NCBI RefSeq assembly: GCF_900116765.1
Contig: NZ_UETC01000002.1
Location: 1-64,000, forward strand
Length of the DNA: 64,000 nucleotides
Direction: 5' to 3'
Source of the DNA: Jannaschia seohaensis
GTDB lineage: Bacteria > Pseudomonadota > Alphaproteobacteria > Rhodobacterales > Rhodobacteraceae
In this document: positions 12,977 to 29,050 of the stretch, piece by piece
How positions within the stretch are numbered: the first letter of the stretch is position 1
Layout: every line of letters begins with the position of its first letter
Program-made: the position numbers and the translations under genes
The notes under the pieces: generated by a model
Told to the model about the DNA's origin: nothing
What the model saw: the letters and a program-made list of their open reading frames with translations, nothing else
The model's database searches: none

Positions 12977-13441
12977 TCAGAGCTTTACGGCATGAACTGC
13001 CGCCCCGACCGCACCGGCCCGGGGCTTGGGCTTGCCTCGGCCGCTTCCTGGGTCGGACTTCGCGAGATCGGCGATGATTGGGCAGTCCGGGCGATGATCG
13101 CCGTGGCAGGACTCGATCAGCGTCTCCAGCGTCTCCGACATGGCCTCGAGTTCGTCGATCTTCCGGCGAAGATTGCTCAGATGGCCCTCTGCCAGCTGCC
13201 GGACATCCGCGCTCCTGCGCGATTGATCCGTCCAGAGCCCCAGCAGTTCACCGATCACCTCAACCGAAAACCCGAGGTCCCGGGCGCGGCGCACGAAGCT
13301 GAGCATGTGGACGTCTCGGTCGCTGTAATCCCGGTAGCCGGAGTCCGTACGCTGTGCGGGCGGGATCAGGCCGGTCTGCTCATAGTAGCGGATCATTTTT
13401 GCCGAAATGCCGGATTTCTTGGCAGCTTCTCCGATGTTCAT
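12977..13441 (-). CDS. cueR: Copper-responsive MerR-family regulator CueR
   Basis: 154 residues. The winged helix at the N terminus (MNIGEAAKKSGISAKMIRYY) and the dimerisation helix match MerR proteins. The metal loop holds C112 and C120 (SCHGDHRPDC), the same numbers and C-x7-C spacing as E. coli CueR, which binds Cu(I) with two cysteines. It activates promoters whose -10 and -35 are 19 bases apart; two such sites occur here, upstream of both copper ATPases. Its ATG overlaps the glutaredoxin stop (ATGA), so both are co-translated. Confidence 0.93.
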   Translation of the reverse strand: MNIGEAAKKSGISAKMIRYYEQTGLIPPAQRTDSGYRDYSDRDVHMLSFVRRARDLGFSVEVIGELLGLWTDQSRRSADVRQLAEGHLSNLRRKIDELEAMSETLETLIESCHGDHRPDCPIIADLAKSDPGSGRGKPKPRAGAVGAAVHAVKL

Positions 13442-13716
13442 GTGCGTTCCTCCTCGAACAGGTTCAGCGCTGCTTCGATCTTGGGTCTCTGTTCGGAGTA
13501 GGTTCCGTAGGTAAACCATTCCCCCATCACCGTAATCGGCGCGACGCGCACCCCGTAACGCGCCTTGGCTTCCTGCATTACCTCCGGGTCGGCCAGATCG
13601 CGCTCCTCGTAGACGATGCCGGTCCGCTCCATCCATGCCTTGATCTGGCGACAATCGGGACAGGTGGGCGTGGTGTAGAGGACGACATGGGCCGTGTTCT
13701 TCGTTCGCTTTTGCAC
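13438..13716 (-). CDS. Glutaredoxin family protein
   Basis: 92 residues with a thioredoxin fold: VVLYTTPTCPDCRQIKAWME carries the C-P-D-C redox pair, followed by YEERDLADPE and the cis-Pro segment VRVAPITVMGE. Cytosolic, likely a small thiol reductase or Cu(I)-handling partner of the regulator encoded next. Start 13716 is the only good ATG. It heads a grx-cueR-CDF operon and lies only 64 bases from the copA stop on the same strand, so readthrough from copA is possible. Confidence 0.85.
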   Translation of the reverse strand: MQKRTKNTAHVVLYTTPTCPDCRQIKAWMERTGIVYEERDLADPEVMQEAKARYGVRVAPITVMGEWFTYGTYSEQRPKIEAALNLFEEERT

Positions 13717-13780
13717 TGGTCCGCTCCTTCAATCTGCTTCGGTGAATGCCCCGGGCATGGACTGCCCGGAGCGATCGTGG

Positions 13781-16309
13781 TCATTCCGCCGGAACGACCG
13801 TGGGCGCAGCGGCCCATCTGCGGGCAGGCGCATCGGCTGGCGACGGAACAGCAAACCGCTTGAGCCGCAGTGCGTTGCCGAGGACGAACACGCTGGACAA
13901 TGCCATGGCGCCCGCCGCGAAGACGGGTGACAGCAAGATACCGAAGGCCGGATAGAGAACGCCGGCAGCGACCGGGATCAGCGCCGTGTTGTAGGCGAAG
14001 GCCCAGAACAGGTTTTGCCGGATGTTGCCGATCGTAGCCTGGCTGAGTGCGATGGCATTGGGGATGCCTCTCAGGCTGCCCGACATCAAGACCACATCGG
14101 CCGCCTCGATGGCCACATCCGTGCCGGTTCCTATGGCGAGGCCCACGTCCGCTTCGGCCAGCGCCGGGGCGTCGTTGATGCCGTCCCCGACATAGGCCAG
14201 CCGGCCCAGGGCCTTCAGTCGCTTCACGGCTTCGACCTTGCCGTCGGGCAGCACCTCGGACACGACCTCGTCGATCCCGAGCCGACGGGCGATGGCATCG
14301 GCCGTGCGCGCGTTGTCGCCGGTGATCATCGCGACCTTGAGGCCCAGAGCGTGGAGCGCCGAGATTGCCTCGGGGGTTGTCTCCTTGATCGGATCGGCCA
14401 CGGCGATGATCGCGGCAAGCTTACCGTCGATGGCAGTATAGAGCGGCGTCTTGCCTTCGTCGCCAAGGCGCTCGGCCGTCTGGTCGAACACGTCGATAAC
14501 GAGGCCGAGCTTGCGCATGTAGCGGTCGGCACCAATCTGAACGCGCGTGCCCGCAACCGTGGCCTCGACGCCGTAGCCAGTCACGGAGTTGAACCCCTCG
14601 ACAGGAAGCGACCCTGCCCCTTCTGCTTGCGCCGCCTCGACGATGGCCCGCGCGATGGGATGCTCGGACCGTTCCTCGACCGCAGCGACCAGCGACAGGA
14701 CTTGCGCCCGGTCGAACCCATCTACGAGTTCGAGATCGGTGAGCGCGGGCTTGCCCTCGGTCAGCGTGCCGGTCTTGTCGAGCGCGACGACACGGGCTTC
14801 CTTTAGAAGCTGCAGGGCTTCCCCCTTGCGGAAGAGCACGCCCATTTCGGCGCCGCGCCCCGTCCCGACCATGATCGAGGTCGGCGTTGCGAGCCCCATG
14901 GCGCAGGGGCACGCGATGATCAGCACGGCCACAGCATTCACGAGGCCGAAGGTCAGCGCGGGATCGGGCCCCCAGATCAACCAGACACCGAAGGTCAGGG
15001 CGGCCAGCGTCATCACCGCCGGGACGAACCACATGGTCACACGGTCGACGAGCGCCTGGATCGGCAGTTTCGAGCCTTGTGCCGCCTCGACCATCCGGAT
15101 GATCTGCGACAGCATCGTGTCCCCGTCTACCGCGGTCGCGCGGAAGGCCAAGGCCCCGTTCTGGTTCACCGTGCCACCGACAACCTGCGCGCCGGCGCTC
15201 TTGGCAACGGGGACCGGCTCTCCCGTGATCATCGACTCGTCGACGTAGCTTTCACCCTCGACAACCTCGCCGTCGACAGGCAGCCGGTCGCCCGGTCGGA
15301 CTTCGACAATATCGCCCGGGGCGACATCGGCCACCGGAATCTCCATGACCGTGCCCTTGCGGCGCACGCGGGCCGTTTTGGCCTGGAGGCCGACCAGCCG
15401 CTTGATCGCCTCGGAGGTTCGACCCTTGGCGCGCGCCTCCAGGTAGCGACCCAGCAGGATGAGCGTGACGATCACCGCCGCGGCCTCGTAGTAGACGTTC
15501 ACCGTGCCCGCCGGGAGGACACCCGACGCAAAGGTCGCCACGACCGAGTAGAAATAGGCGGCAAGCGTACCGACCGCGACCAAGCTGTTCATGTCGGGTG
15601 CGCCACGGAGGAGCGCCGGGATGCCCTTGGTGTAGAAACGCAGTCCCGGCACCGCGAGAACGAAACTCGTGAGCGCAAATTGAAGGAGCCAGCTCGCCTG
15701 ATGCCCGATTGTGGACCCGATCAGTGCGTGCATGCCGGGAATGAGGTGGCTGCCCATCTCAAGCAAGAAGACCGGCAAGGTTAGCACCGCGGCAAGGCCG
15801 AGGTCACGCCTCAGGGCCGCCTGTTCGGCATCTTTGCGCGCTGTTTTTCCTTCGTCCTCACCGGCCTGTTGGGAGACCTCCCGGGCTATGTATCCGGTTT
15901 CCGCGACGGCGGCGATCAGCGTCGATACGTCCGCTGTGCCCTCGACAGTCGCCTGCTCGGTCGCGAGATTCACGGTTGCTTCGGTGACGCCGGGGATGGC
16001 CTGAAGCGCCCGCTCGACCCGGCCGACGCAAGACGCGCAGGTCATGCCGTCAACGGCGAGCACGATGGTCTGTCGAGGCACAGCATAGCCTGTCGCCTCG
16101 ATCGCTCGGATCAGTTCAGGTCGAACAGACGGCTCGGCGATACTCACCTCGGCAGACTCGGTCGCAAGGTTGACGTTGGCCGACAGCACGCCGGGCACTG
16201 CCGACAGCGCTCGTTCGACCCGGCCAACACAGGAGGCGCAGGTCATGCCTTCTATCGGGATCCGCACCGTCCCGCCCGTCTGCGGCGGCGTATCCGTGTG
16301 AGCTTTCAT
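13781..16309 (-). CDS. copA: Copper-exporting P1B-type ATPase CopA
   Basis: 842 residues. Two N-terminal heavy-metal-associated domains each carry GMTCASC (residues 21-27 and 88-94). Eight membrane helices follow; the transport motif C467-P-C469 sits in helix 6, the phosphorylated Asp is D511 in DKTGTLT, and [10 protein letters not shown] closes the P-domain. This is the Cu(I)-type ATPase that pumps copper from cytosol to periplasm. The ATG at 16309 follows AAAGGACAAGCC and starts just ahead of the first metal domain; an in-frame upstream extension to 16378 would overlap the promoter. A CueR-type promoter lies 39-69 bases upstream. Confidence 0.97.
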
Positions 16310-16347
16310 GGCTTGTCCTTTCGTGTTCGAATCATTGCTCACATGTC

Positions 16348-16378
16348 GAGATAAGGGCTCCAACGATTGGAAGGTCAA
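16348..16378 (-). promoter_or_regulatory. CueR-type promoter of copA
   Basis: On the minus strand: -35 TTGACC (16378-16373), a 19-base spacer holding the near-palindrome CCAATCGTTGG, then -10 TATCTC (16353-16348). The long spacer, the TTGACC box and the dyad centred between the boxes are the known layout of CueR-activated copA promoters. The same arrangement stands before the second ATPase. Confidence 0.75.
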
Positions 16379-17754: not shown

Positions 17755-18420
17755 TCAACTCCGTGCGCTGACGTAGTCTTCGGGAGGATGCAGGTACGCC
17801 GTCACGCCGTTATCGACCTTTGGATAGAGCGAGATCATATGGGCATTGACCAGCCGCACGCAGCCTGAACTCGCGCGGCCCCCGATGGAGCGCGGCTCCG
17901 GCGAGCCATGGATGCGCAGGTAGGTGTCGCGATCACCGACGAAGAGATACAAAGCCCGAGACCCAAGCGGATTATCGGGCCCAGGTTCCATTCCGTCTTC
18001 CACGTCTGCGTATAGGTCCGGATCGCGCTCGATCATGGAGCGCGTCGGTGTCCAGTGCGGCCACCGAACTTTGCGCCGGATCGTGTAAGTGCCCGGCTCG
18101 TACAGCCTGCCTCGTGCGATGGCCACGCCAAAGCGCATAGCCGTTCCGCCTTCCTCGATGTGGTAAAGGTACCGCGCGACCGCGTCGACATGGATGTCGC
18201 CCGGTCTCAAACCATCGTTTGCGATCACCTGGGTTGGCAGGAAGCGCGGATGAAGGCCCCAGGGGTTCGACGTGGCCGGATCGTAGTTCGCAGGCGTGAC
18301 CTGCGCATCCCAGTCCGCTTTCTGTGCCTCGCTCGGCCAGGTGCTGGCAACCAGCGGACCGGTGATGGGCGGCGAGAACAAAGCGGCCGTCGAAACGATG
18401 AAATGGCGGCGGGTCAGCAT
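17755..18420 (-). CDS. L,D-transpeptidase (YkuD domain), Tat-exported
   Basis: 221 residues. Signal MLTRRHFIVSTAALFSPPIT has a twin-arginine start. The YkuD catalytic block is H171 (RIHGSPEPRSIGG) and C187 in SSGCVRL, with the Arg just after it. Such enzymes make 3-3 peptidoglycan cross-links or attach proteins to the wall. It is the last gene of the minus-strand operon headed by the cytochrome at 23505, following dsbA by 37 bases. The catalytic Cys depends on a reduced thiol, which may explain why it travels with a thiol oxidoreductase and why copper, which inhibits these enzymes, matters. Confidence 0.88.
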   Translation of the reverse strand: MLTRRHFIVSTAALFSPPITGPLVASTWPSEAQKADWDAQVTPANYDPATSNPWGLHPRFLPTQVIANDGLRPGDIHVDAVARYLYHIEEGGTAMRFGVAIARGRLYEPGTYTIRRKVRWPHWTPTRSMIERDPDLYADVEDGMEPGPDNPLGSRALYLFVGDRDTYLRIHGSPEPRSIGGRASSGCVRLVNAHMISLYPKVDNGVTAYLHPPEDYVSARS

Positions 18421-18457
18421 CGCGCGTAACTCCGGTCAGTCGATCGCAGGCGCGCGG

Positions 18458-19186
18458 TCATTCGGACCCATCACGCACCTGCGCGACCAAGGCCTGCAAC
18501 TGCTCCTGTTCGACGAGACCCGGAACGAGCGCCTCGCCGATCACGAAGGACGGAGTGCCGTTGAACCCCAGAGCCTGGCTAAGGCGCATGGAGGTTGCGA
18601 TATGCTCTTCGATCTCGGGCGCCGCCATGTCCCGACGGAGCTGCACGAGATCGAGCCCGACTTCTTCGGCCACCCGCATGACGGCTGCTTCTTCCGCCCG
18701 GCCGTTCATCCCCATCAGAGCCCAGTGGAATTCCTCGTAAAGGTCCTGTTCGCGTGCGGCGAGTGCCGCCCGCGCGGCAAAAACAGATCCCTCGCCCAAA
18801 ATGGGCCACTCACGATAGACAAGTCGAACGTTTGGATCGGAGGCCAACAAGGCCTCGATCTCTGGTTTTACGCGCCTGCAGTAGGGGCAGTTGTAGTCGA
18901 AGAACTCGACGATGGTGACGTCGCCATCCGGATTTCCGAGTACGGGCGCGTTCGGATCGCGCTCGAGAAGATCGCGCTCGTCCTCCAGAACCTGCGATTG
19001 TGCCTGGGCCTGTGCGTCGGCCTCCTGACGTTGCAGGATGGCGACGGCTTCCATCACAATTTGCGGGTTCTCGCGTATGGTCTCAAGGACCAGCTCGCGT
19101 ACCCTATCCTCCGACAGGTCGTCCGCGATCGCGGCGATTGGCAGAAAAACAGCCAATGCCGTGGCGGAGAGAATGGATTTCTTCAT
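18458..19186 (-). CDS. DsbA-family periplasmic thiol:disulfide oxidoreductase
   Basis: 242 residues: signal peptide (MKKSILSATALAVFLPIAAI), a helical N-terminal extension (residues 24-75, a DsbA-associated oligomerisation-like segment), then the thioredoxin fold with C100-P-Y-C103 in VEFFDYNCPYC. The cis-Pro loop is NGTPSFVIG. The layout matches ScsC/BcfH-type or DsbG-like proteins often linked to copper stress. ATG 19186 begins the signal peptide. It follows the cytochrome gene by four bases in the multicopper-oxidase operon. A second DsbA-like gene lies at 23.7 kb beside scsB. Confidence 0.9.
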   Translation of the reverse strand: MKKSILSATALAVFLPIAAIADDLSEDRVRELVLETIRENPQIVMEAVAILQRQEADAQAQAQSQVLEDERDLLERDPNAPVLGNPDGDVTIVEFFDYNCPYCRRVKPEIEALLASDPNVRLVYREWPILGEGSVFAARAALAAREQDLYEEFHWALMGMNGRAEEAAVMRVAEEVGLDLVQLRRDMAAPEIEEHIATSMRLSQALGFNGTPSFVIGEALVPGLVEQEQLQALVAQVRDGSE

Positions 19187-19190
19187 TGGG

Positions 19191-19679
19191 TCAACTCCCT
19201 TCGTTGGCGAGGCTCGCCTCTGTACGGGCGGCCTGCGCGGCACGCGCGCGCTCCGGCCAAGTCGATCGGATGTAGGCGAGAATGGTCCAGATTTCCTGAT
19301 CGCTTAGCTGCCCGGTGAAGCCGGGCATGCCACTGTCGAACTCGATGCCCTGCAAGGCCAGCGTCTCACGGCCGCCAAGCTTCGTGTATTGAAACAGGAC
19401 GCTGTCGGGGTGGTGCCATGTATGCCCGGTCTCGTCATGAGGGGGCGCCGGCAACCGGCCGTCAGACCCCGGGCTTTGCCAGTCAGGCTGCCCTTCCAGG
19501 TTTACGCCATGACAGGACGCGCAGTACTCGCCGTAGAGCACCTCACCTTGTGCCAGGTCGAGACCTTCTGGAATGACCATTGCAGCTTTCGACTCCGAGC
19601 CTCCGCCCGTCCACCAGAAAGCAACCAGCGCAACGGAGACGATGGCGCCAGAAGCTACCGCGACCACACTCCTCCGCAT
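19191..19679 (-). CDS. Membrane-anchored cytochrome c (class I)
   Basis: 162 residues with an uncleaved or signal-anchor N terminus (VVAVASGAIVSVALVAFWW). One heme site is C53-A-S-C56-H57; the axial Met is probably in DSGMPGFTGQLSDQEIW, followed by the usual C-terminal helix (TILAYIRSTWP). Periplasmic electron carrier. Its ATG overlaps the stop of the multicopper oxidase (ATGA), so the two are co-translated, which suggests a direct redox partnership. Confidence 0.9.
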   Translation of the reverse strand: MRRSVVAVASGAIVSVALVAFWWTGGGSESKAAMVIPEGLDLAQGEVLYGEYCASCHGVNLEGQPDWQSPGSDGRLPAPPHDETGHTWHHPDSVLFQYTKLGGRETLALQGIEFDSGMPGFTGQLSDQEIWTILAYIRSTWPERARAAQAARTEASLANEGS

Positions 19680-21073
19680 CAAGTCACCCTGACCCAAGTC
19701 ATCATCCCTGAGGCGGCATGGGAAAGCATGTGGCAGTGAAACAGCCAGTCGCCGGGGTTGTGCGCCGAGAACGCGATCTCGCGCGTCTCGCCCCCGAATG
19801 TCAGAATGGTATCCCGGAGCGGTCCCAGGGTGCCGTCTGCCGCGATCTCGCGGAAGTGCATACCGTGGAGGTGCATGGCATGCGGGAAGGAGGTGTCATT
19901 GACAATTTCAAGACGGACCGGCTCATCACGTGCTAGATTGGCCAGTGGGTCATCTGTCATGCCGATGACGTCATTGAAGGCCCAGAACTGGTTGGCATCG
20001 ACCAGTTGGCGAAAGGTTCTCCGCTCTCCGTTGAATTGGGCCGACTGCAAGCGGCCCATCGCGCCTCCACCCATGTTAAGGCGCACACGCCGGGCTTGTG
20101 AGAGATCCGGAAGAGCCATGTTGGCGTTTGGCGGCAAGGCCTGCGGAGCATCCCTGCGCGCGCCGGACGATGCCCCGATCACCGGGAAGGCCGACTGAAC
20201 GAACCCCTCGCCATTGTCGACACGAACCAGATAGACCGTCTCACCTTGCTCCGCCACGACGTCCACAAGGAGGTCGGCCCGCTGCCCCGGCCCGAGCAAA
20301 ACCGTCTCGAACACGGGCTGCGGCGCTTCCAGCGGCATGCCGTCGAGCGCCATCACCCAGCCCTCGAGGCCGGCCAGTGCCAGTTCGAAGATCCGGGCAT
20401 TTGCCGCGTTCACGAGGCGAAGCCGCAGCCGCTCATGTCGGCGCACATCAAGGCTGTGCCCGTACTGCCCGTTCGTCGCGATGAAGTTCCCGACCCGGCC
20501 CGCGTGGCTGCGATCGTGGCGCGAGGTGAAGTCGGGATCGATCTGCGCAGTGTCAGGGTTCAGGAGCCAGTCATCGAGGATCAGGACCTCGTCGCGATCC
20601 ACGTCGCGCCCCTCCGGTTCTTCGACCACGAGAGCGCCGTAGAGACCACGCGCGACCTGTTCCATGGAGCGGTTGTGGGCGTGGTACCAGTAGGTGCCGG
20701 CATCGGGCGCGACGAAATCGATGTCGAAGGACGCGCCGGGGGCGACGGCCTCCTGCGTCAGGCCCGCGACACCGTCCATCGCGTTGTCGATCCGGACGCC
20801 GTGCCAGTGGATCGACGTGGCCTGAGGCAGTTCATTGACCAGCCGGCGCGTGACGCGACCGCCCTGCCGAACCCGGATCACCGGTCCCGGCATGGAGCCG
20901 TCAAAGCCCCAGATGGCGGTCTGGGGATAGTCCGGCGGCGCCAGTTGCAGGCTGGCTTCGCGGGTCGTCAGCGGCACGGCCGAGTTGCTCTGCGCGAACA
21001 GATTGGACGGTGCGGTCGAGGCGAGCCCCGCGGCCGCCCCGATCTTCAGGATATCGCGTCTTGAGTAGATCAT
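19679..21073 (-). CDS. Multicopper oxidase, CueO/CopA-like, Tat-exported
   Basis: 464 residues. The signal MIYSRRDILKIGAAAGLAST contains the twin-arginine motif used for folded copper proteins. The four copper-ligand blocks are present: H89-W-H91-G, Y-H131-A-H133, HAMHLHGMHF, and HCHMLSHAASGMM near residues 446-458, supplying the T1 Cys and the trinuclear centre. Such enzymes oxidise toxic Cu(I) to Cu(II) with O2. There is no long Met-rich insert as in CueO, but Met-rich partners are encoded nearby. ATG 21073 starts the Tat signal; the frame's upstream extension overlaps the previous gene and is not coding. Confidence 0.93.
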   Translation of the reverse strand: MIYSRRDILKIGAAAGLASTAPSNLFAQSNSAVPLTTREASLQLAPPDYPQTAIWGFDGSMPGPVIRVRQGGRVTRRLVNELPQATSIHWHGVRIDNAMDGVAGLTQEAVAPGASFDIDFVAPDAGTYWYHAHNRSMEQVARGLYGALVVEEPEGRDVDRDEVLILDDWLLNPDTAQIDPDFTSRHDRSHAGRVGNFIATNGQYGHSLDVRRHERLRLRLVNAANARIFELALAGLEGWVMALDGMPLEAPQPVFETVLLGPGQRADLLVDVVAEQGETVYLVRVDNGEGFVQSAFPVIGASSGARRDAPQALPPNANMALPDLSQARRVRLNMGGGAMGRLQSAQFNGERRTFRQLVDANQFWAFNDVIGMTDDPLANLARDEPVRLEIVNDTSFPHAMHLHGMHFREIAADGTLGPLRDTILTFGGETREIAFSAHNPGDWLFHCHMLSHAASGMMTWVRVT

Positions 21074-21117
21074 GTCATCTTCCTCGGGGGCGCACGCCAG
21101 GATCGGATCGCGCCTTC

Positions 21118-22056
21118 TCAGTCGGCCTCGCCTTCCGTCGCATGCACACCTGCCATCTCGATCCCTGCGACATCGCTGTCGAGCAGGTATGTCGCCATTG
21201 CCTCGAGGTCCGCGGGTGTCAGAAAGCTCGTCCCGTACATGACGACCTCTCCCATCGAGCCTCCGAAAGCGTCGCCGGAGGGCGTGATGCCCGTTCTGAG
21301 AGCGTAGGCGAGGTTGGAGACGGTCCAGCCGCCCGCAATCAGGTCGGGGGGCCTGATCGACGGAGCATCGTTGCCGCCGGGAAGCGCATCGTTGCCGGCG
21401 AACGCGGCGTCGACCACGCGCGCACCCGCAAGGTTCCGCTCCGTATGGCAGGCACCGCAATGTGTCGCGCCCCGAACCAGTTCCCGCCCGCGGTTCCACA
21501 TCTCACTCTGCCCATCGACCGGCTCCGTCGCCGGATCATCGAGATAGGTCGCCCGCCAGAGCTTCAGACCCCAGCGCTGATCGAAAGGGAACACCACGTC
21601 ATGCGAGGGCGCATTTTCGGCCACCGGAGGAACCGTCTGGAATGCGGCCCACAGGTCGGCAATGTCCTGGTCGGAAAAGTCGGCGTAAAACGGATAGGTG
21701 AATGTCGGATAGTAGGGCGCGCCATCCGGCCCGATGCCTTGCCGCACCGCGCGGGCGAAGTCCTCGACAGTCCACGCTCCGATGCCAAAGTCGGGGTCAG
21801 TGGTGATGTTCGGCGGATAGAACGTGCCGAAGTCGGTGGGAAGAGGCGCGCCGCCGGCAAGCGGCGCGCCTCCGTCCTCGAAGTTGGTGTGACAGGCAAT
21901 ACAGCCGCTTGCGCGGGCCAGATAGGCCCCACGCTCGACATCTCCGACCAGCTCGATCGGTTCCGGCTCCACCCCAACCGGCCATGCGGCCAGCGCAGCG
22001 ACGGAGGCCACACCAAGCACCGCGGTCGCTGTGCCGAATTTCAGGACCGGTCGCAT
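21118..22056 (-). CDS. Diheme cytochrome c
   Basis: 312 residues with a signal peptide (..GVASVAALAAWP) and two c-type heme sites, C52-I-A-C55-H56 and C200-G-A-C203-H204, each in its own class I-like domain (GCIACHTNFEDGGAPLAGG; ATHCGACHTERNLAGAR). The arrangement resembles the cytochrome subunits of periplasmic dehydrogenases and thiosulfate/diheme cytochromes. The ATG at 22056 has GAGGA ten bases upstream; a GTG at 22062 overlapping the previous stop is possible. It lies just before the multicopper oxidase, implying electrons pass between them or on to an oxidase. Confidence 0.88.
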   Translation of the reverse strand: MRPVLKFGTATAVLGVASVAALAAWPVGVEPEPIELVGDVERGAYLARASGCIACHTNFEDGGAPLAGGAPLPTDFGTFYPPNITTDPDFGIGAWTVEDFARAVRQGIGPDGAPYYPTFTYPFYADFSDQDIADLWAAFQTVPPVAENAPSHDVVFPFDQRWGLKLWRATYLDDPATEPVDGQSEMWNRGRELVRGATHCGACHTERNLAGARVVDAAFAGNDALPGGNDAPSIRPPDLIAGGWTVSNLAYALRTGITPSGDAFGGSMGEVVMYGTSFLTPADLEAMATYLLDSDVAGIEMAGVHATEGEAD

Positions 22057-22058
22057 CG

Positions 22059-22658
22059 TCACTCGTCCTCGGCGCGAAACCGGGTGTGGCAGGCCGAACA
22101 GACCTGGCTCGCCATCGCGAAGGCCGCATCGGCGGGCATGGCGCCGATATCAGCGGCCGTCATGCCACTCATCATGCCGCCGCCCATCATGCCGCTGCCA
22201 CTGCCCATCATGGCGCTGCCGTTTCCACCCATCATGCTGCCGCCGCCCATCATGGTGCCGGTAGACATCCCACCTTGCTCATGAGCGAGGCCGTTGTCTG
22301 CGGCCATGGCGAGACCGCGTGCGGCCACCTGCATCTGCTCAGCGAGGGCGGCGAACCTGTCCCACTCCTCCCAGATCAGATCGCGGGCCTCGGAGGGATC
22401 GCCGTTGCTGCCTTCGGGGAACAGGTCCGTCATTGCGCTGCCGGAATGCGCCTCGATGGTTTCCGCCGCACGCCTCAAGGCGTCTGCATCGTATTCGCGT
22501 TCGCCGCGCATCATGGGGGCGACGGCCTGCACCGCATCGCCCATAGCCTTCATGCCTTCCATGCGCTCCAGGACAACGCCGGTGGCGCCCGTGTGCGCCA
22601 GCGCCGCCGCACCGGCGATGACACTGGCAAGAGCAATGCTCGTCAGTCTGATTTTCAT
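22059..22658 (-). CDS. Cytochrome c' family protein with a methionine-rich insert
   Basis: 199 residues. Signal peptide (MKIRLTSIALASVIAGAAALA), then the four-helix pattern of class II cytochromes (ERMEGMKAMGDAVQAVAPMM; DLIWEEWDRFAALAEQM) and the C-terminal heme site C187-S-A-C190-H191. Between helix 3 and helix 4, residues 131-166 hold 12 methionines separated by Gly/Ser, a likely Cu(I)-binding loop not usual for this family. Cytochromes c' bind gases or carry electrons; here copper binding and heme are joined in one protein. Stop is three bases before the diheme gene start. Confidence 0.88.
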   Translation of the reverse strand: MKIRLTSIALASVIAGAAALAHTGATGVVLERMEGMKAMGDAVQAVAPMMRGEREYDADALRRAAETIEAHSGSAMTDLFPEGSNGDPSEARDLIWEEWDRFAALAEQMQVAARGLAMAADNGLAHEQGGMSTGTMMGGGSMMGGNGSAMMGSGSGMMGGGMMSGMTAADIGAMPADAAFAMASQVCSACHTRFRAEDE

Positions 22659-22699
22659 GGGGTTTCTCCTCGTCTTGGGGGTCGAAATTCTTGAAGAGC

Positions 22700-23050
22700 T
22701 CACGACCCATTTCGGGGAGGCGGTAGATCAAAAGGTATCGTCACGCTTTGGCCATCGCTTCTAGTCAAAGCAAAGCGATGGTCGAATTCCGCAAGTTGGA
22801 TTTCGAGCCAGGGATCATTCAGAAACACGGATACGGTCTGGCAATCGAGCCCCGGATGACAGTGCCGGTCCACCGCTGCATTTTCATCCTCGGCATAGGC
22901 CGGATGAGCGTCCGCATGGTCGTGCAAGTGTACTTGCTTGGACACTCCGCCCATAGCCTCAGCGGTATCGGGCAAAGACGAGAGGGCCATCGACAGCATG
23001 ATGCAGATGACGAGCGCAGCTTTGGCAAAGGTGCGATGCCCGGTTCGCAT
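22700..23050 (-). CDS. Small periplasmic His-rich protein, putative metal-binding
   Basis: 116 residues with a signal peptide (..KAALVICIMLSMALSSLPDT). The mature start is rich in His and acidic residues (VHLHDHADAHPAYAEDENAA then VDRHCHPGLDC), giving several likely Cu(II) or Zn(II) ligands plus two cysteines. The rest is short beta-like sequence (FLNDPWLEIQLAEFDHRFAL). No named family. ATG 23050 overlaps the stop of the upstream cytochrome gene, so it belongs to the operon. Confidence 0.7.
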   Translation of the reverse strand: MRTGHRTFAKAALVICIMLSMALSSLPDTAEAMGGVSKQVHLHDHADAHPAYAEDENAAVDRHCHPGLDCQTVSVFLNDPWLEIQLAEFDHRFALTRSDGQSVTIPFDLPPPRNGS

Positions 23051-23505
23051 CAATTGATTCCGTTTGCACGCTGCAGTTCACGGACATACGCCGTGATGGC
23101 CATGACATCAGCGCGCGTAACGCCTTCGACCGGCGGCATGTTCCCGAAGTTCCAGTGATGCGCCCTCACGCCGTTCTGGGCGGCCAGAAGAAACGCGGCA
23201 TCTGCGTGGTGGCTAGGTTCATAGATGCGGTGCACGAGCGGCGGCCCGATCCCCTGGCGTCCGGACGCGTTCTCGCCATGACACTGGACGCACAGACCCT
23301 CGAACCCGCGTCGCCCGATCTGCGCCTGTCCCGAGAGTGTGTCCGGCACCTGCACCTCGACCATGGGTGAGCCTTGTGCGACCGCCACTGCGTCCGAGGC
23401 GGCCGCTGGACTCTGGTCGTTGCCGCCCGGCGCGAACAGCCACCAGCCAGCTCCTACGATGACCGCGATGAATGCGATCGCGACCGTGACAGCCTTTGAA
23501 TTCAT
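23050..23505 (-). CDS. Membrane-anchored cytochrome c (class I), first gene of the operon
   Basis: 151 residues: N-terminal anchor (VTVAIAFIAVIVGAGWWLF), an Ala/Gln linker, then one heme domain with C72-V-Q-C75-H76 (GLCVQCHGENASGRQGIGPP) and a Met ligand probably in GNMPPVEGVTRADVMAI. It heads the eight-gene leftward operon (cytochrome, His-rich protein, cytochrome c', diheme cytochrome, multicopper oxidase, cytochrome, DsbA, L,D-transpeptidase), with gaps of 0-60 bases throughout. The divergent intergenic region to the right contains TGTATC repeats. Confidence 0.9.
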   Translation of the reverse strand: MNSKAVTVAIAFIAVIVGAGWWLFAPGGNDQSPAAASDAVAVAQGSPMVEVQVPDTLSGQAQIGRRGFEGLCVQCHGENASGRQGIGPPLVHRIYEPSHHADAAFLLAAQNGVRAHHWNFGNMPPVEGVTRADVMAITAYVRELQRANGIN

Positions 23506-23644: not shown

Positions 23645-23671
23645 TGGCTTTAAAGGGTCGGGAACCGATTG

Positions 23672-24436
23672 ATGGCCGACAGGCGCACACTTCTCTTGAT
23701 GCTTGTTGCAGGCGGAACCGTGGTCGGCGGATTTCGCGTGCTGCCTGTCCTGTTCGAAGGTTTGCCCGAGTTTGAACCCCTCGATGACCCGCCGGGATTT
23801 CGACGGGTCGCTGGCGGATCCGTCTCTTCGAGCTTCAATCCGTTTGCGGGTCTGAGCGTCGGAGGATCAGAGGAGACACCGGCGCGCGTGCCCCCTGACA
23901 GCCTCCGCGCAGATCTGTGTTCGCATCTCTTCGGAACTGCGGCGAGATCCGAAGGCGTGGTCCCGATTGCGTCTTTCGCCGACTACTACTGCCCATATTG
24001 CAGGGTTCAGACCAAGCGGCTGTCAGAACTGGGATCCGAACTTGGCTCAGAGGTCGCCATCGAGTGGCATGAGCTGCCGCTTCTTGGCGAAACCTCGATC
24101 CTTGCAGCGCGCGCTGCGCTCGCCGCAAAGCGCCAAGACGCCTACGTAGTGTTCCACGAGAACCTTCTGACAAGCCCGTTCCGCGCGAACGCGGAATATC
24201 TATCCCTGCTGTCCGAGCGGATTGGCGTGGACCATGCTCAATTGATCGCAGACATGGAGAGCGAAAGCGTCTCCCGCGAACTTGAAATCAGTGCCGCGCT
24301 CTCGCGGCTGTTCGCTTTCGTGGGGACGCCCGCAATGGTGGTCGGTCGGACCGTGATCCAGGGAGAGGTGTCGGATCGAACCTTGCGCCGGATCATCAGC
24401 CTGGAGCGAGAGGAAGGCTGGTCCTCCGTATGCTGA
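23672..24436 (+). CDS. DsbA-like thiol:disulfide oxidoreductase
   Basis: 254 residues. Signal or anchor MADRRTLLLMLVAGGTVVGG, a linker of ~60 residues, then a thioredoxin fold with C107-P-Y-C110 (FADYYCPYC) and cis-Pro loop FVGTPAMVVG. An extra Cys occurs at 83 in RADLCSHLFG and at the extreme C terminus (SSVC). The ATG at 23672 is preceded by a TTG in frame. Its stop overlaps the next gene's start by seven bases; that neighbour encodes a broken ScsB, the membrane electron donor that would keep this protein reduced. Confidence 0.85.
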   Translation: MADRRTLLLMLVAGGTVVGGFRVLPVLFEGLPEFEPLDDPPGFRRVAGGSVSSSFNPFAGLSVGGSEETPARVPPDSLRADLCSHLFGTAARSEGVVPIASFADYYCPYCRVQTKRLSELGSELGSEVAIEWHELPLLGETSILAARAALAAKRQDAYVVFHENLLTSPFRANAEYLSLLSERIGVDHAQLIADMESESVSRELEISAALSRLFAFVGTPAMVVGRTVIQGEVSDRTLRRIISLEREEGWSSVC

Positions 24437-26566
24437 CTTGCTTCAGGGCAGATTGTCTCCGCATTTTGGCGGGCGCCATGCTCGCAGCTACCGTCCTTTC
24501 CGCTACCCCTTTCCAAGTCAGCGCCGCCAGTTCGGATCCCGTCACGACACCGGCAGTGTCCGCGCGGCTGCTGACCGTCGAGAACGGGATAGCGCCCGGG
24601 GCCGGCACGCTTTCGGCCGGACTGGCGCTGGATCTCGCCGAGGGCTGGAAGACCTACTGGCGCACGCCCGAAGAGGTTGGCTTTCCACCGGAGATCGACT
24701 GGTCGGGATCGCAGAACGTTGCGTCGATTGATTTTCAGTGGCCGGCGACGGAGCGCTTCACCGCATTTGGCATCGAGAACTTCGGCTATCACGACGAAGT
24801 TGTCTTTCCGATCCGCATAACGCTGGAGGAACCGGGCGCGCCGGTGCGGCTTTCTGCGGACGTGACACTGCTCACATGCTCGGACATCCGCGTACCACAG
24901 TAGTTCTCCTTGCCCCTCGATGTGCCGACCGGCATCGGCATCGACGAGGCGAGCGCCGCACGCATCATGGCGTTTGCCGATCGGGTTCCTGTCGATGCAT
25001 CGGCGGCGGGTATCACCGACATTTCCGCTTATGTCGATCCGGCTATGAGCGCGGTGGTGGTCTCGCTGCGGGGCGAAGCGCCCTTCACCGTTCCGGACAT
25101 CTTTGCCGAACTTGGGCCGTCTACCTCCCTGGGCCGTCCGGACATCCGGCTGGGCGACGATGGGTATCTCCTTTGGGCCCGCGTTCCGATCCTCTCTGCG
25201 CTGGACAGCCCTTTGCAGGACCTCTCGGTGACGGTAACTGACGCGGGCGGGTTCGCTGTGACCGCAGCCCCCAAATCGCTTTCGGACCCGCCTGAACCGC
25301 CCTTCGCTGTCGCGACCTCAGGCGTCGATTTTGCGGCGCTGGTCTGGATCGCTGCCACCGCGTTCCTTGGAGGACTCGTTCTCAACGCGATGCCTTGTGT
25401 CCTTCCAGTTCTGTCGATCAAGCTCGCTTCCGCCATGCGGCTGGGTGGCGACGACAGGATCGAGGTCCGACGGGGGTTCCTGGCTTCGGCTGCGGGCGTG
25501 ATGGCATTAATGTGGGGCCTTGCCGCCATTCTTTTTATGCTGCGGGAGATCGCCGTCACGGTGGGATGGGGCCTTCAATTCCAGAACCCGGTCTTCCTGT
25601 CCCTGATGGTGCTGGTCCTTGGGATCTTTGCGGCCAACCTCGTGGGCGCGTTCGAGATCGCGCTGCCGTCTCGCCTGCCGACGCGGCTGGCGAATGCCGG
25701 CTCCACGCCAGGTCTGTTCGGGGACTTCGCCGCGGGAGCGTTCGCGGCCGTCCTCGCGACCCCGTGTTCGGCCCCCTTCCTCCGAACGGCCGTCGCCTTC
25801 GCGCTGGCCGGTCGCGGCATCGACATCGCGGTCGTCTTCACGCTCCTCGGTCTCGGACTGGCGGCCCCGTAGCTGGCCATCGCCGCGCGGCCCGGATTGA
25901 TCCGGCGCCTCCCGAGACACGGGAGGTGGATGGGCGTGTTACGCGCGGTTCTCGGTCTCTTGCTCGGCGGAACCGCTTTGGCTGGTTTGGGTCATGATTG
26001 GCGTTTCAGGACCGATCGCGACCCTCGCGTCCGTTGCAGTGACCGCAGTCATTGTCGGGGTTCTCAGTATGCGCGGTGTGAGCGGTACGGCGCGCGGTGC
26101 AACCGCAGCCGCTCTCGCCGTCGTGATGCTGATCGTCTCCGGAACCCTGCCGGATCGCCTGTCGTCGCGAGGAACGATTGCATCCGAGACGGGCGGAATT
26201 GCCTGGCTCCCTTTTGAACGGGCCGAAATCGCCCGACGCATCTCCACAGGGGAAGTTGTCTTCGTCGACGTGACCGCGGACTGGTGCCTGACCTGCAAGG
26301 CGAACAAGGCGCTTGTGCTGGACCGAGACCCGGTCGTGACTGCGTTAGGCCGTCCTGGGGTCGCAGCGATGCAGGCCGACTGGACCCGCCCGGACGAGGC
26401 GATTTCCCGCTATCTCGAGGGCTTCGACCGCTTCGGTATCCCGTTCAACGTCGTCTATGGGCCGGGTGCGACGGAGGGTATCGTTCTGCCGGAACTGCTG
26501 ACAGCCGACGCAGTCATGGACGCCCTCCATCGGGCCAGAACCCGCGAGTTCAGCCGGACCGAGTGA
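24430..26566 (+). pseudogene. scsB: ScsB/DsbD-type thiol:disulfide interchange protein, interrupted
   Basis: Read through, the product would have an N-terminal periplasmic domain (..GLALDLAEGWKTYWRTPEEV..), a membrane domain with LNAMPCVLPVLSIK and LATPCSAPFLRTA, and a C-terminal thioredoxin domain with DWCLTCKANK. Breaks: TAG at 24901-24903 after VPQ, TAG at 25870-25872 after GLGLAAP, and a frameshift near 25972 (GGTAL joins WLVWVMIGVSGP one frame over). The N-terminal domain also reads C-S-D-I-R where a second Cys is expected. Four independent lesions argue for a true pseudogene. It would have carried electrons from cytosolic thioredoxin to periplasmic DsbA-like proteins. Confidence 0.8.
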
Positions 26567-26587: not shown

Positions 26588-26908
26588 TCAGCGCTCCAGC
26601 GCCTTCTTCCGGCGTTCAAATTCCTCTTCGTCGATTTCACCGGCGGCAAATCGTTCGCGCAGGATGTCGATCGCGTCGCGCCTTCCACGATTGCCGCCGG
26701 CCTGGTTGTCGGTGAACCATTTCACGGCCAAAACGATCAAGACGATGACGACGCCCCAGAAGAGCAGCATCATCAGGCCACCCACCATGCCGTAGCCGCT
26801 GCCCCACATCATGTGATCATACCTCCCCTGCCAATCCGCCTGAGGATCGGCGGCCACTGCCGTCGGAAGCATGGCGAACGTCGCCACTATCGCTATCGAT
26901 CTCAGCAT
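26588..26908 (-). CDS. SHOCT-domain membrane protein
   Basis: 106 residues: signal peptide (MLRSIAIVATFAMLPTAVAA), a Met/Trp/Gly segment (YDHMMWGSGYGMVGGLMMLL), one membrane helix, and a C-terminal SHOCT motif (AIDILRERFAAGEIDEEEFE, ending RRKKALER). SHOCT is a short oligomerisation or targeting motif common in copper loci. The ATG at 26908 has AGAGGAG upstream and lies inside the 3' end of the kinase gene, overlapping it by 92 bases in another frame. It is therefore the third gene of the regulator-kinase operon. Confidence 0.8.
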   Translation of the reverse strand: MLRSIAIVATFAMLPTAVAADPQADWQGRYDHMMWGSGYGMVGGLMMLLFWGVVIVLIVLAVKWFTDNQAGGNRGRRDAIDILRERFAAGEIDEEEFERRKKALER

Positions 26909-28328
26909 TCTCCCACTCCTCTCTCTTCGTTGACGTCTTGTGAGACCGCCTGCCCGCGAGCGGGACGGCCATGGTCGCCACGAGTCCGCCATCCCTCCGG
27001 TTCGCGAGATGGATCTCGCCGCCATGCGCACGGACGATGGATCGGGCGATGGAAAGCCCCAGACCATGCCCGCCGGTCTCGAGGGAGCGCGAGCCTTCGA
27101 GCCGATAAAACGGGTCGAAGACCTGCTCGAGCTTGTCGGACGGGATGCCCGGGCCCCTGTCGCGTATCTCGATGACGAGAGTATCGTCCTCGGACCGCCA
27201 GGCGATCTCGGCGCTCCCCCCGTAGCGGAGCGCGTTCTCCGCGACGTTTCGCACTGCGCGGCGAAACGAGACCGGGCGCAGGCGCGCATGAACGCCGGGG
27301 CCACCAAGGATCTCCGGCGGGTCCGGCATGTCGGATGTCAGGTCCCGAAGAAACCTACCGACATCGACCTCTCGCGGCTCTTCGGTGCCGGTTAGGTCCT
27401 CGGCGAAGCTCAACGTCGCCTCCGCCATGGTCTGCATTTCCTCGATCGACTCGATCAGGCTTTCACGGGTTTCGTCATCGTCCACCATCTCGGCGCGCAC
27501 CCTGAGCGCTGTGAGCGGCGAGCGCAGATCATGGCCCACGGCGGCAAGAACTCGCGTCCTGTCGGCGACGTATCTGGTCAGGCGTTCCTGCATCAGATTG
27601 AACGCCAGCGTCAGGTCCTCGACCTCCGCAGGGCCGACCAGCGGTTGCGGAACCGCGTCTTCGCCACGACCAAACCGCTCGGCCGCGCCTGCCAGTTCGC
27701 GCAATGGCCCGGTCAGGCGCGTGACCAGAAACCAGCACACCGTGATGAGTATGAGCGCCGCCGTCAGCGCGAAAGTGAAGGTGGAGAACAGGGGCCACTG
27801 CAGCGGCGGCCGCTCGAACCGGGTCCCGACGTTCAGCCATTGCCCTCCGGCTAGCGCAATGGACAGCGTCATCTCCAGCGCCGCCATCTCGCCCCGCATC
27901 ATCGAGCGGTGCATTTCCGCCATCTCCGGCGAGAGGTTCGGCAACGGCAGGACCGGCGTGTCGATATCGTCGATTTGGACACGAATATCGCGGCTGTAGC
28001 TGTCGCCAAGAAGCGCCCGCACGCGGGCTTCCACGGGCGCCGCATGGTGGTGGTCCGGCTCCGTTACGTTCGGTGCGTCGGACAATTCGAAACGCACGAG
28101 CGGCGAGTTTGCAGAACGGAGGATCGACGCGTGAAGGTCGGGCGGCGCTTCTTCCAGAAGCCGGGCGACGTTGGCGGCCCGGCCGGCGGCCTCGAAGCCA
28201 AGCGCCGCGCGGATGGCCAGGCTGCGCTCGTCCACGAAGAGCCACAGGCTGATGGCCTGCGCGACGACGAGTGCGGCGACGATCAGAATGACGAGTTGCG
28301 CGCGCAGGCTTCGGAACGGCCGTCTCAT
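26817..28328 (-). CDS. Sensor histidine kinase of a copper-linked two-component system
   Basis: 503 residues. Two membrane helices (residues 11-32 and 180-203) bracket a periplasmic sensor. That sensor contains PDHHHAAP at 91-98 and MAEMHRSMMRGEM at 136-148, which are plausible copper ligands. A HAMP region follows, then the phosphoacceptor H266 (AAVGHDLRSPLTAL), the N box (NVAENALRYGG), G1 DRGPGIP and G2 HGLGLSIARS. The final ~40 residues after VPLAGRR are polar and overlap the SHOCT gene; the stop may be a late mutation. Its start overlaps the regulator stop (ATGA). Confidence 0.9.
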   Translation of the reverse strand: MRRPFRSLRAQLVILIVAALVVAQAISLWLFVDERSLAIRAALGFEAAGRAANVARLLEEAPPDLHASILRSANSPLVRFELSDAPNVTEPDHHHAAPVEARVRALLGDSYSRDIRVQIDDIDTPVLPLPNLSPEMAEMHRSMMRGEMAALEMTLSIALAGGQWLNVGTRFERPPLQWPLFSTFTFALTAALILITVCWFLVTRLTGPLRELAGAAERFGRGEDAVPQPLVGPAEVEDLTLAFNLMQERLTRYVADRTRVLAAVGHDLRSPLTALRVRAEMVDDDETRESLIESIEEMQTMAEATLSFAEDLTGTEEPREVDVGRFLRDLTSDMPDPPEILGGPGVHARLRPVSFRRAVRNVAENALRYGGSAEIAWRSEDDTLVIEIRDRGPGIPSDKLEQVFDPFYRLEGSRSLETGGHGLGLSIARSIVRAHGGEIHLANRRDGGLVATMAVPLAGRRSHKTSTKREEWENAEIDSDSGDVRHASDGSGRRSSGGLAGEV

Positions 28329-29050
28329 TCGACGACCTCGACATCCGTTGCGAGGCAGTAGCCCCCGTTTCGGACCGTCGTGATGATCCTCGGCCGCAGG
28401 GGATCCGGCTCGATCTTGCGCCTGAGCCTGCTGATCTGGTTGTCGATGGTCCGGTCCATGGGGCCCGCAGCCCGGCCCGAGGTCAGGTCGAGCAGCTGAT
28501 CCCGGCTCAGGACCTTCCGGGGGCGCTCAAGGAGGACCGTCAGCAGGCGAAAGTCCGCGGTCGTCAGCGGCAGACGTTCCCCGCCTGGCGTCTCGATCGC
28601 CTGTCCATCCGTGTCGAGCGTCATGCCGGCGAAGCGAACGCGTTTTCCTGCGAGTTCCCCGGCGTGGTTCTCGGCGGATGAACTCCTGCGCAACACGGCC
28701 TTGATGCGCGCCAGCAGCTCACGGGGGTTGAAGGGCTTCGGCAGGTAGTCGTCCGCACCGAGTTCCAGGCCCACAATCCGGTCCGTCTCCTTGCCTAGCG
28801 CAGTCAACATTATGATTGGGAGGCTTGATTGCCCCGCAAGCCTTCGGCAGACGGAAAGACCGTCCTCGCCCGGCATCATCACATCCAGCACCAGCAGATC
28901 GTAATGGCCAGAGGCCAACCGGGCGTCCATTTCGACCGCGTCCTTGGCCGCGGTTGCACGCATGCCGTTCTTTTCAAGGAACCGGGTGACCGACTCCCGG
29001 ATCTGCCTGTGGTCATCCACTACCAGGATATGAGGGCTGCTGGACATCAT
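28325..29050 (-). CDS. OmpR-family response regulator
   Basis: 241 residues: receiver domain with phosphoacceptor D56 (LLVLDVMMPGEDG), acidic pair DD near residue 12, Lys in LPKPFNPREL; then an OmpR/PhoB winged helix (LTTADFRLLTVLLERPRKVL, RDQLLDL, ISRLRRKIE, TVRNGGYCL). It forms an operon with the kinase whose sensor has His/Met clusters, so copper is the likely signal. Divergent from the Met-rich EF-hand gene; a TGTATC-type inverted repeat lies between them and the same word occurs upstream of the two periplasmic operons. Confidence 0.93.
   Translation of the reverse strand: MMSSSPHILVVDDHRQIRESVTRFLEKNGMRATAAKDAVEMDARLASGHYDLLVLDVMMPGEDGLSVCRRLAGQSSLPIIMLTALGKETDRIVGLELGADDYLPKPFNPRELLARIKAVLRRSSSAENHAGELAGKRVRFAGMTLDTDGQAIETPGGERLPLTTADFRLLTVLLERPRKVLSRDQLLDLTSGRAAGPMDRTIDNQISRLRRKIEPDPLRPRIITTVRNGGYCLATDVEVVE

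Follow-up and report, generated by a model that had tools for sequence, protein, structure and literature searches.

The window (the whole 64,000-nucleotide stretch of Jannaschia seohaensis DNA analysed here) carries on its minus strand, at 23505-17755, an operon of eight genes in the order A-B-C-D-E-F-G-H (Table 1): a cytochrome c (A), a small His/Cys protein (B), a cytochrome c' (C), a diheme cytochrome (D), a multicopper oxidase (E), a cytochrome c (F), a ScsC-like DsbA (G) and an L,D-transpeptidase (H). The initial annotation had proposed such an operon with five heme sites, and both proposals were borne out: the Pfam search found Cytochrom_C in A, D and F, Cytochrom_C_2 in C, three Cu-oxidase domains in E, DSBA and ScsC_N in G and YkuD in H, with no match for B alone, and CxxCH motifs were present in A (one), C (one), D (two) and F (one). 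The overlapping stops and starts also described there held for A/B, C/D and E/F, which touch or overlap, but not for F/G (spacing of 4 nt) or for B/C, D/E and G/H (gaps of 41, 44 and 37 nt respectively). C likely starts at ATG 22658 rather than at GTG 22703, and E likely at ATG 21073.

Table 1. Features of the operon and of its flanks; positions are those of the window.
Feature	Position	Strand	Basis
A: monoheme cytochrome c (CVQCH), N-terminal anchor by eye, first operon gene	23050..23505	-	
B: CutF-like exported leader protein, 116 aa, HCHPGLDC motif, C-terminal PPPR-NGS-stop	22700..23050	-	
Candidate stalling motif, the PPPR codons of B; overlaps the hairpin 5' arm	22712..22723	-	
Predicted hairpin, end of B to ribosome-binding site GAGGAG (22671-22666) of the cytochrome c' gene	22666..22719	-	
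C: cytochrome c', C-terminal CSACH heme site	22059..22658	-	Pfam, model, fold match
Met-rich (MMG repeat) insert of C, residues ~130-162, low model confidence	22173..22271	-	
D: diheme cytochrome c	21118..22062	-	Pfam
E: three-domain multicopper oxidase, Tat-like signal	19679..21073	-	Pfam, motifs
F: monoheme cytochrome c (CASCH), N-terminal anchor by eye	19191..19679	-	
G: ScsC-like DsbA-fold thiol oxidoreductase (CPYC), ScsC N-terminal domain	18458..19186	-	
H: L,D-transpeptidase (YkuD, LdtE-like)	17755..18420	-	
CopA-type P1B copper ATPase, two HMA domains	13781..16378	-	
MerR-family (CueR-like) regulator	12977..13732	-	
Second DsbA-fold protein, divergent	23669..24436	+	
Disrupted gene for a ScsB-like disulfide reductase, with a frame change and two in-frame stops	24430..26566	+	
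Histidine kinase (26817-28328) and response regulator (28325-29050)	26817..29050	-	

The multicopper oxidase contained all four copper-ligand motifs (HWH, HAH, HxxHLHG and HCHxxxHxxxxM), those of the trinuclear O2 site included, and no Met-rich insert, Met making up 15 of its 464 residues. With three Cu-oxidase domains and a laccase as its best PDB relative, it belongs to the three-domain laccase type; its scores against the NCBIfam CopA/PcoA and CueO equivalogs were below the curated cut-offs (193.3 vs. 478.95 and 134.1 vs. 525 bits respectively). The earlier label of G, DsbA, was right as to the DSBA domain and was refined to ScsC-like, since the ScsC N-terminal domain is also present (PF01323 together with PF18312; 29.2 bits, cut-off 25.8). 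The PDB relatives of G included 4gxz, a protein named suppression of copper sensitivity. H combines a YkuD domain and the catalytic SxGC motif with a single Cys, the catalytic one (SSGCVR). Transpeptidase thiols are protected by DsbG. Copper is said to inhibit L,D-transpeptidases, a result reportedly due to Peters et al. in 2018. Protection of the transpeptidase by the thiol protein of the operon is plausible, with a single Cys in H and ScsC next door, yet H was interrupted in three of the five nearest complete relatives (L004, L006 and L007).

The initial annotation had made its proposal depend on these families occurring together elsewhere, and the neighbourhood search found that they do. 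Matches to all eight genes in the same order were detected by tblastn in L003-L007 and L070 (6 of 80 loci). A was found near the oxidase in 76 and F in 75 of the 80 loci, and G in 66; an L,D-transpeptidase was found in 66 (downstream in 22, upstream in 50) and a CopA ATPase downstream in 47, all these counts including loci that stop at contig ends and several near-identical copies. The upstream L,D-transpeptidases, 48 of 50 without the Arg-containing catalytic motif, look like a different subclass, because the copies inspected in full show SxGCIG. The setting of the operon in the window also concerns copper (CopA, the MerR regulator and ScsC), and the operon is best read as a periplasmic copper-detoxification cluster. 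No description of such a gene composition was found in the full text of open-licence papers.

C is a class II cytochrome c' (PF01322, E-value 4.8e-23) with its CxxCH at the C-terminus; its structure model showed the four-helix fold, with a Foldseek match to 3vrc. The c'-type assignment of the initial annotation was therefore correct, but it had overlooked a Met-rich insert, present in all 28 full-length distinct C proteins and probably a copper-binding loop. In 15 of the 80 loci the slot after A/B was occupied by a Met-rich cupredoxin, and this exchange behind a similar leader suggests that cytochrome c' can act as a copper-buffering scaffold.

The abundance of A and F near the oxidase bears on the fate of the electrons of Cu(I). 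The initial annotation had proposed that these might leave by way of cytochromes and not solely go to O2; the respiratory chain would then be their destination, with the oxidase or the Met-rich cytochrome c' as donor and A, D and F as carriers. Such a route would agree with the relationship of D to the cytochrome subunits of membrane-bound sugar/alcohol dehydrogenases and with the N-terminal anchors recognised by eye in A, D and F. It is nevertheless considered unlikely: the trinuclear motif set of E is complete and its nearest solved relative is a laccase, 39 of the 80 slots (contig ends counted) had no recognisable C or D despite the presence of E, and among 29 loci with more distant oxidases (~40-56% identical) only six had an F-like cytochrome, and one had C plus D, within 1.5 kb. 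These 29 loci also argue against cytochrome linkage as a general trait of the oxidase superfamily, and that idea was rejected.

The cluster was also present on plasmids of marine Rhodobacterales relatives, and in one of them, pP66_b, genes for CcmI, a cytochrome c biogenesis protein, DsbE and a DsbD-domain reductase lie beside the operon. The cytochromes might be replacement electron carriers: as excess copper damages cytochrome c maturation, the cluster would supply spares together with a thiol chaperone, to which some plasmids add genes for maturation. The available sections of PMC8456105 describe the maturation of cytochromes c as a major target of copper in the periplasm. Maturation genes were found in just one of the two plasmid neighbourhoods inspected, and the Met-rich insert and the cupredoxin swap would be left unexplained, making this explanation possible but doubtful.

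B had been described as a His-rich protein, and its mature part is indeed His/Cys-rich; the description missed a resemblance to CutF and with it a probable regulatory role. Its N-terminus is hydrophobic and signal-like (by eye), its length is below the approximately 150 aa taken as the limit for CutF-like proteins, and its PPPR begins 7 residues before the C-terminus, where CutF-like proteins are expected to have PP within the last 15; tails in the cupredoxin clade were mostly longer (19-24 residues). Both A and E occur in 77 sequences, those of 76 loci plus the window, and motif searches detected B in 51 of them. In every one of these 51 the Cys motif and PPPR are separated by 37-40 residues, the value for the window clade being 39, and the C, H and C of CHxxxxC were invariant in a 31-row alignment. 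Outside the window clade B was mostly only 15-31% identical to the protein of the window (44% in L009). The dN/dS of B against L003-L008 was 0.43-1.82, compared with 0.09-0.53 for the remaining genes (F, G and H computed against L003-L007, with certain H pieces short). By these substitution rates B is under near-neutral drift, with almost no purifying selection over most of the protein.

Of the 55 loci in which the slot following A holds a cytochrome c'/diheme cytochrome or a cupredoxin, 50 had B; none of the 21 loci lacking such a gene did. Twenty further loci were recovered through weaker hits of a B profile, several of them without any oxidase match: the next gene encoded a Met-rich cytochrome c' in 13, L105 among them, a cupredoxin came next in 3, and in L107, L111, L113 and L114 a B with an extra CxxC was followed by an A-like cytochrome and an oxidase, with no Met-rich protein. 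The profile detected B in 56 of 394 genomes at the family level (E-value ≤ 0.01, the window's own genome included) and, in a class-wide sample, in one of 385 (E-value ≤ 0.001), which was the window's own. Membership of B in DUF2946 (PF11162) was considered and discarded: none of 31 members matched at an E-value ≤ 1, and the assignment is unsupported since B is without a Pfam match. B may already figure among the published CutF-like proteins.

A hairpin was predicted at the B/C junction. In the window alone the fold was modest (z -1.99; 5 of 200 shuffles equally good). Among 34 junctions located before cytochrome c' genes, 29 were distinct and 28 were used (L008 omitted), and the hairpin touched the ribosome-binding site in 26 of these (shuffles: mean 14.2, maximum 24). 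The 20 B-profile loci yielded 14 located junctions; after omission of four whose gaps measured 122-166 nt, the hairpin touched the site in 10 of the 10 used, two of which precede a cupredoxin (shuffles: mean 3.9, maximum 8). When arms were swapped between junctions, own arms paired better in both sets: none of 20,000 permutations was as good for 15 representatives of the first, and 8 of 20,000 for the 10 junctions of the second. Control junctions showed a weak arm preference (188 of 5,000 for E and 378 of 5,000 for D), the junction before E likewise folded more stably than shuffles, and the mean pairing of the ribosome-binding site was slightly over shuffles (0.682 vs. 0.595, sd 0.041). A conserved hairpin in the cupredoxin operons was dropped although B persists there: the site was touched in 3 of 12 junctions (shuffles: mean 6.7) and the arm swap gave 5,981 of 20,000 (n=6; start codons picked by rule, 14 junctions located, L022 and L065 omitted).

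The persistence of B in operons lacking the hairpin would be expected if B were an ordinary periplasmic copper-binding protein or chaperone loading the oxidase or the Met-rich cytochrome, the hairpin being incidental; its signal-like N-terminus, its His/Cys-rich mature part and the different next genes in 4 of the 20 B-profile loci point the same way, and a chaperone function was also the first proposal made for CutF, according to the available sections of PMC8456105. This seems improbable for a protein with such high dN/dS and yet a constant spacing to its C-terminal PPPR, encoded beside a hairpin whose arms co-vary in two sets of junctions. B is most likely a copper sensor acting on translation of the next gene, not a simple copper binder.

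The operon is probably a copper-detoxification operon in which B is a CutF-type cis-acting sensor rather than mainly a working protein. Export of B would begin during its own translation; in the presence of Cu(I) its CHxxxxC would bind copper outside the membrane, the C-terminal PPPR would slow the ribosome on nascent B, and the stalled ribosome would open the hairpin hiding the ribosome-binding site of the cytochrome c' gene. We infer that copper may in this way open translation of cytochrome c', followed by that of the diheme cytochrome through coupling and perhaps of the oxidase too. The Met-rich loop (in sister operons, the Met-rich cupredoxin) would capture Cu(I), the multicopper oxidase would oxidise it with O2, the anchored cytochromes might exchange electrons with the oxidase or the respiratory chain, ScsC would keep thiols reduced or rightly paired, and the extra L,D-transpeptidase may replace wall cross-linking inhibited by copper. 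That the Met-rich cytochrome c' is itself a new copper-heme protein, its loop capturing Cu(I) and its own heme taking the electron and passing it to the diheme and anchored cytochromes, with Cu(I) oxidised without O2 and synthesis switched on by the copper-sensing nascent leader, is a speculative and very unlikely extension.

The closest known system is CutF-CutO (cutFOG) of R. capsulatus. The available sections of PMC8456105 and PMC9973294 describe an exported protein of small size that has a copper motif of Cys and His and a C-terminal PPPR, a short gap, a hairpin over the next ribosome-binding site and a multicopper oxidase; the operon described here has the same layout, with a candidate variant of the copper motif and a predicted hairpin; CutF has C69xxH72C73, ends in PEPEGPPPRL118 and has a gap of 40 residues (39 in B), loss of the Cys motif or of PPPR cut CutO activity by ~90%, and variants of the Cys motif were accepted (PMC8456105). 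The differences are that B is followed here by the gene of a Met-rich cytochrome c', the oxidase gene lying two genes further on, and that the motif is CHxxxxC instead of CxxxC. Leader-type control is already known from CutF, where nascent-export sensing was worked out for one multicopper oxidase; what would be new is CutF-type control of a Met-rich cytochrome c', which a diverged relative appears to exert here. The co-varying arms of these naturally occurring hairpins open the model to direct tests.

CruR (DUF2946), encoded by an upstream ORF of Bordetella pertussis, has a similar layout in the available sections of PMC9426467: an exported leader that senses copper, with a spaced Cys motif and a C-terminal proline motif, the spacing being constant within one or two residues in the family. 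In CruR, unlike B, copper lowers a TonB-dependent transporter operon, CXXC and RAPP are 45 residues apart, and the protein belongs to DUF2946. CopI of Rubrivivax gelatinosus, a His/Met-rich periplasmic cupredoxin (PMC13308877, available sections), bears a general likeness to the slot cupredoxin, but the slot of the window holds a heme protein, the cytochrome c' with its Met-rich loop.

In Nitrosomonas europaea, ncgABC-nirK joins a multicopper oxidase and small cytochromes c in one operon tied to nitrite reductase; it is not known to include B, ScsC or a transpeptidase. ScsABCD (suppressor of copper sensitivity) is echoed by the ScsC_N domain of G and the ScsB-like gene nearby, but that gene is broken and the remaining operon genes are not Scs. 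The broken gene was also considered as a recoded enzyme, and this was rejected; decay is the simpler reading, because long open frames are kept in relatives (L006 and L007) and two stops and a frame change have accumulated here. An open second copy is present elsewhere in the genome.

The eight genes (A to H in the table) formed one operon in the window, as the initial annotation had claimed, and all five heme motifs attributed to them were present. Overlapping stops and starts were confirmed at A/B, C/D and E/F, but not at F/G, B/C, D/E and G/H, where 4, 41, 44 and 37 nt, respectively, lay between the genes. G had the N-terminal domain of ScsC and, among its relatives in the PDB, a suppression of copper sensitivity protein, so that ScsC-like is the better name for it. 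E had no Met-rich segment (15 Met in 464 residues). Genes around the operon encode a CopA ATPase and a cation-efflux protein as well as regulators, one of the MerR type and a histidine kinase paired with a response regulator; judged by these neighbors the setting is copper, and a copper role for the operon is very probable.

Features of the operon and its surroundings in the window
Feature	Position	Strand	Description
Operon A-H	23505-17755	minus	eight genes
A		minus	cytochrome c with N-terminal anchor
B		minus	small His/Cys protein, exported
C		minus	cytochrome c'
D		minus	diheme cytochrome c
E		minus	multicopper oxidase with Tat-like signal
F		minus	second cytochrome c with anchor
G		minus	DsbA-fold protein
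H		minus	L,D-transpeptidase
B/C stem	22719-22666		predicted RNA hairpin
ScsB-like gene	24430-26566	plus	broken: in-frame stops 24901-24903 and 25870-25872, frame change near 25985
Transposase	10785-11756	minus	IS110 type, close to the copper cluster
Membrane protein	16630-17277	plus	predicted, family unknown, between CopA and H

One genome per species was scanned with the oxidase, and the best 80 of 356 relatives, by their titles nearly all Rhodobacterales or Alphaproteobacteria, were used. Among these, tblastn matches to all eight genes in the same order were found at 6 loci (L003-L007 and L070); A, F and G lay near the oxidase in 76, 75 and 66 loci. An L,D-transpeptidase was present on one side or the other in 66, and 47 had CopA downstream. 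Some loci were cut by contig ends and several were near-identical copies, so the 80 are not independent events. Around 29 more distant oxidases (about 40-56% identity), an F-like cytochrome was found within 1.5 kb in 6 and C plus D in 1; the cytochrome link is thus mainly a property of this clade and not of the oxidase type. Two annotated plasmids were also compared. The conjugative pP66_b of Phaeobacter inhibens carried a transpeptidase, a cytochrome c, B, two cytochromes c, the oxidase, a cytochrome c, a DsbA-family protein and CopA; next to these were a DsbD-domain reductase and genes for cytochrome maturation. Its full B frame (L148, 6072-6443) lay inside a gap with no annotated gene. Roseovarius indicus pRIdsm_02 had the oxidase between two cytochromes c, preceded by the transpeptidase and followed by the DsbA-family protein, and B, C and D were absent from its operon.

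Between A and E, the 76 loci that have A held cytochrome c' and/or diheme cytochrome (40), a Met-rich cupredoxin (15), a CopC-like protein (5) or nothing recognized (16). B was present in 50 of the 55 loci of the first two kinds and in none of the other 21; among the five exceptions, L032 and L038 had a B with longer Cys spacing and L017 a B frame running off. In 20 further loci, chosen by weaker hits of the B profile, B was followed by a Met-rich cytochrome c' (13) or a cupredoxin (3), in seven cases with no oxidase match in the stretch (L100, L101, L106, L108, L109, L110 and L115). The other four (L107, L111, L113 and L114) showed a third arrangement, a B with an extra CxxC and with its PPPR adjoining the stop, then an A-like cytochrome and the oxidase. 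B thus accompanies a Met-rich protein mostly, not exclusively.

Pfam, sequence relatives in the PDB and the predicted fold all placed C with cytochrome c', but with an MMG-repeat loop (residues 130-162, a low-confidence part of the model) inserted ahead of the last, heme-bearing helix. All 28 full-length distinct C proteins had a Met-rich loop. Because C plus D are replaced by a Met-rich cupredoxin in other loci, we infer that this loop binds Cu(I). Three further C proteins (L015, L018 and L019) were cut short, perhaps within the repeats or close to them, possibly through slippage.

According to the CutF reports, the Rhodobacter capsulatus protein has a C69xxH72C73 motif and a PEPEGPPPRL118 C-terminus, both required for CutO production (PMC8456105), and copper bound by the nascent, exported protein allows the opening of a hairpin that covers the ribosome-binding site of cutO (PMC9973294). 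A and E were both present in the window and in 76 loci. Of these 77 sequences, 51 had a B with a CH-x4-C-type motif, diverged from that of CutF, and a C-terminal PPPR-type motif; the two motifs lay 37-40 residues apart, mostly 39, against 40 in CutF. Only C64, H65, C70, P110 and P112 were invariant in a 31-row alignment, where identity to the window's B was mostly 15-31% outside its clade. With respect to L003-L008, dN/dS was 0.43-1.82 for B and 0.09-0.53 for the other seven genes; the high values owe partly to low dS in B, which is consistent with constraint on the RNA. We are rather confident that B is a CutF-type sensor.

In the predicted fold of the window, the proline codons of B lay within the 5' arm, opposite GGAG of the cytochrome c' ribosome-binding site. 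At least 3 pairs fell on the ribosome-binding region in 26 of 28 distinct B-to-cytochrome c' junctions (100 shuffles keeping that region: mean 14.2, sd 2.8, maximum 24). The B-profile loci gave 10 of 10 (shuffles: mean 3.9, maximum 8), two of them preceding a cupredoxin. The 14 junctions located in these loci included four more, with gaps of 122-166 nt, that were excluded. When the 5' arms were combined with the 3' arms of all other loci, arms of one locus averaged -15.42 vs. -10.34 kcal/mol swapped in 15 loci (at most 80% alike; 0 of 20,000 permutations as good) and -14.96 vs. -10.78 in the second set, of 10 loci (8 of 20,000). For the junctions preceding A, D, E, F and G, used as controls, the counts were 3,885, 378, 188, 920 and 2,451 of 5,000. 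Against the hairpin, mean pairing of the ribosome-binding site was only about 2 sd above shuffles, and the window junction alone gave z -1.99. In cupredoxin operons with B the hairpin was not kept (3 of 12 junctions vs. 6.7 in shuffles; arm swap 5,981 of 20,000, n=6), and since this set as a whole lacks it, B probably acts in another way there. In nine cupredoxin operons (L054, L056, L059, L061, L062, L065, L072, L076 and L077) B had a gap of 38, and its PPPR lay 19-24 residues before the end.

The reading we favor, and consider probable, is that of an oxidase-based detoxification operon in which copper controls how much of a Cu(I)-binding cytochrome is synthesized. Exit of Cu(I) electrons through the cytochromes, proposed initially, is possible. 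Protection of a thiol-dependent H, proposed with it, is reasonable given the single cysteine of H and the adjacent ScsC, though H was interrupted in L004, L006 and L007 and the window's ScsB-like gene close to the operon is broken; a second ScsB-like gene with an open frame (C36) is present at another place in the genome, close to a second match to ScsC. The interruptions affected three of the five closest complete relatives and were downstream of G, with the rest of the operon still 85-97% identical (B 82-84%). The ScsB-like gene was open over long frames in L006 and L007.

As for novelty, the sensing principle is already known from CutF and CruR, and this gene composition was not among the matches listed by open-text literature searches of limited coverage. 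B occurred in 56 of 394 genomes of the family and, in a sample across the class, in 1 of 385. What is new is which gene follows the leader, the divergence of the motif, the restricted range of B in these samples and the exchange with a cupredoxin.

A second L,D-transpeptidase subclass lay upstream of A in 50 of the best 80 loci, with SxGCIG, not SxGCxR, as catalytic motif in the copies printed in full. The membrane protein between CopA and H was matched in some relatives (e.g. L003, L005, L006 and L007).
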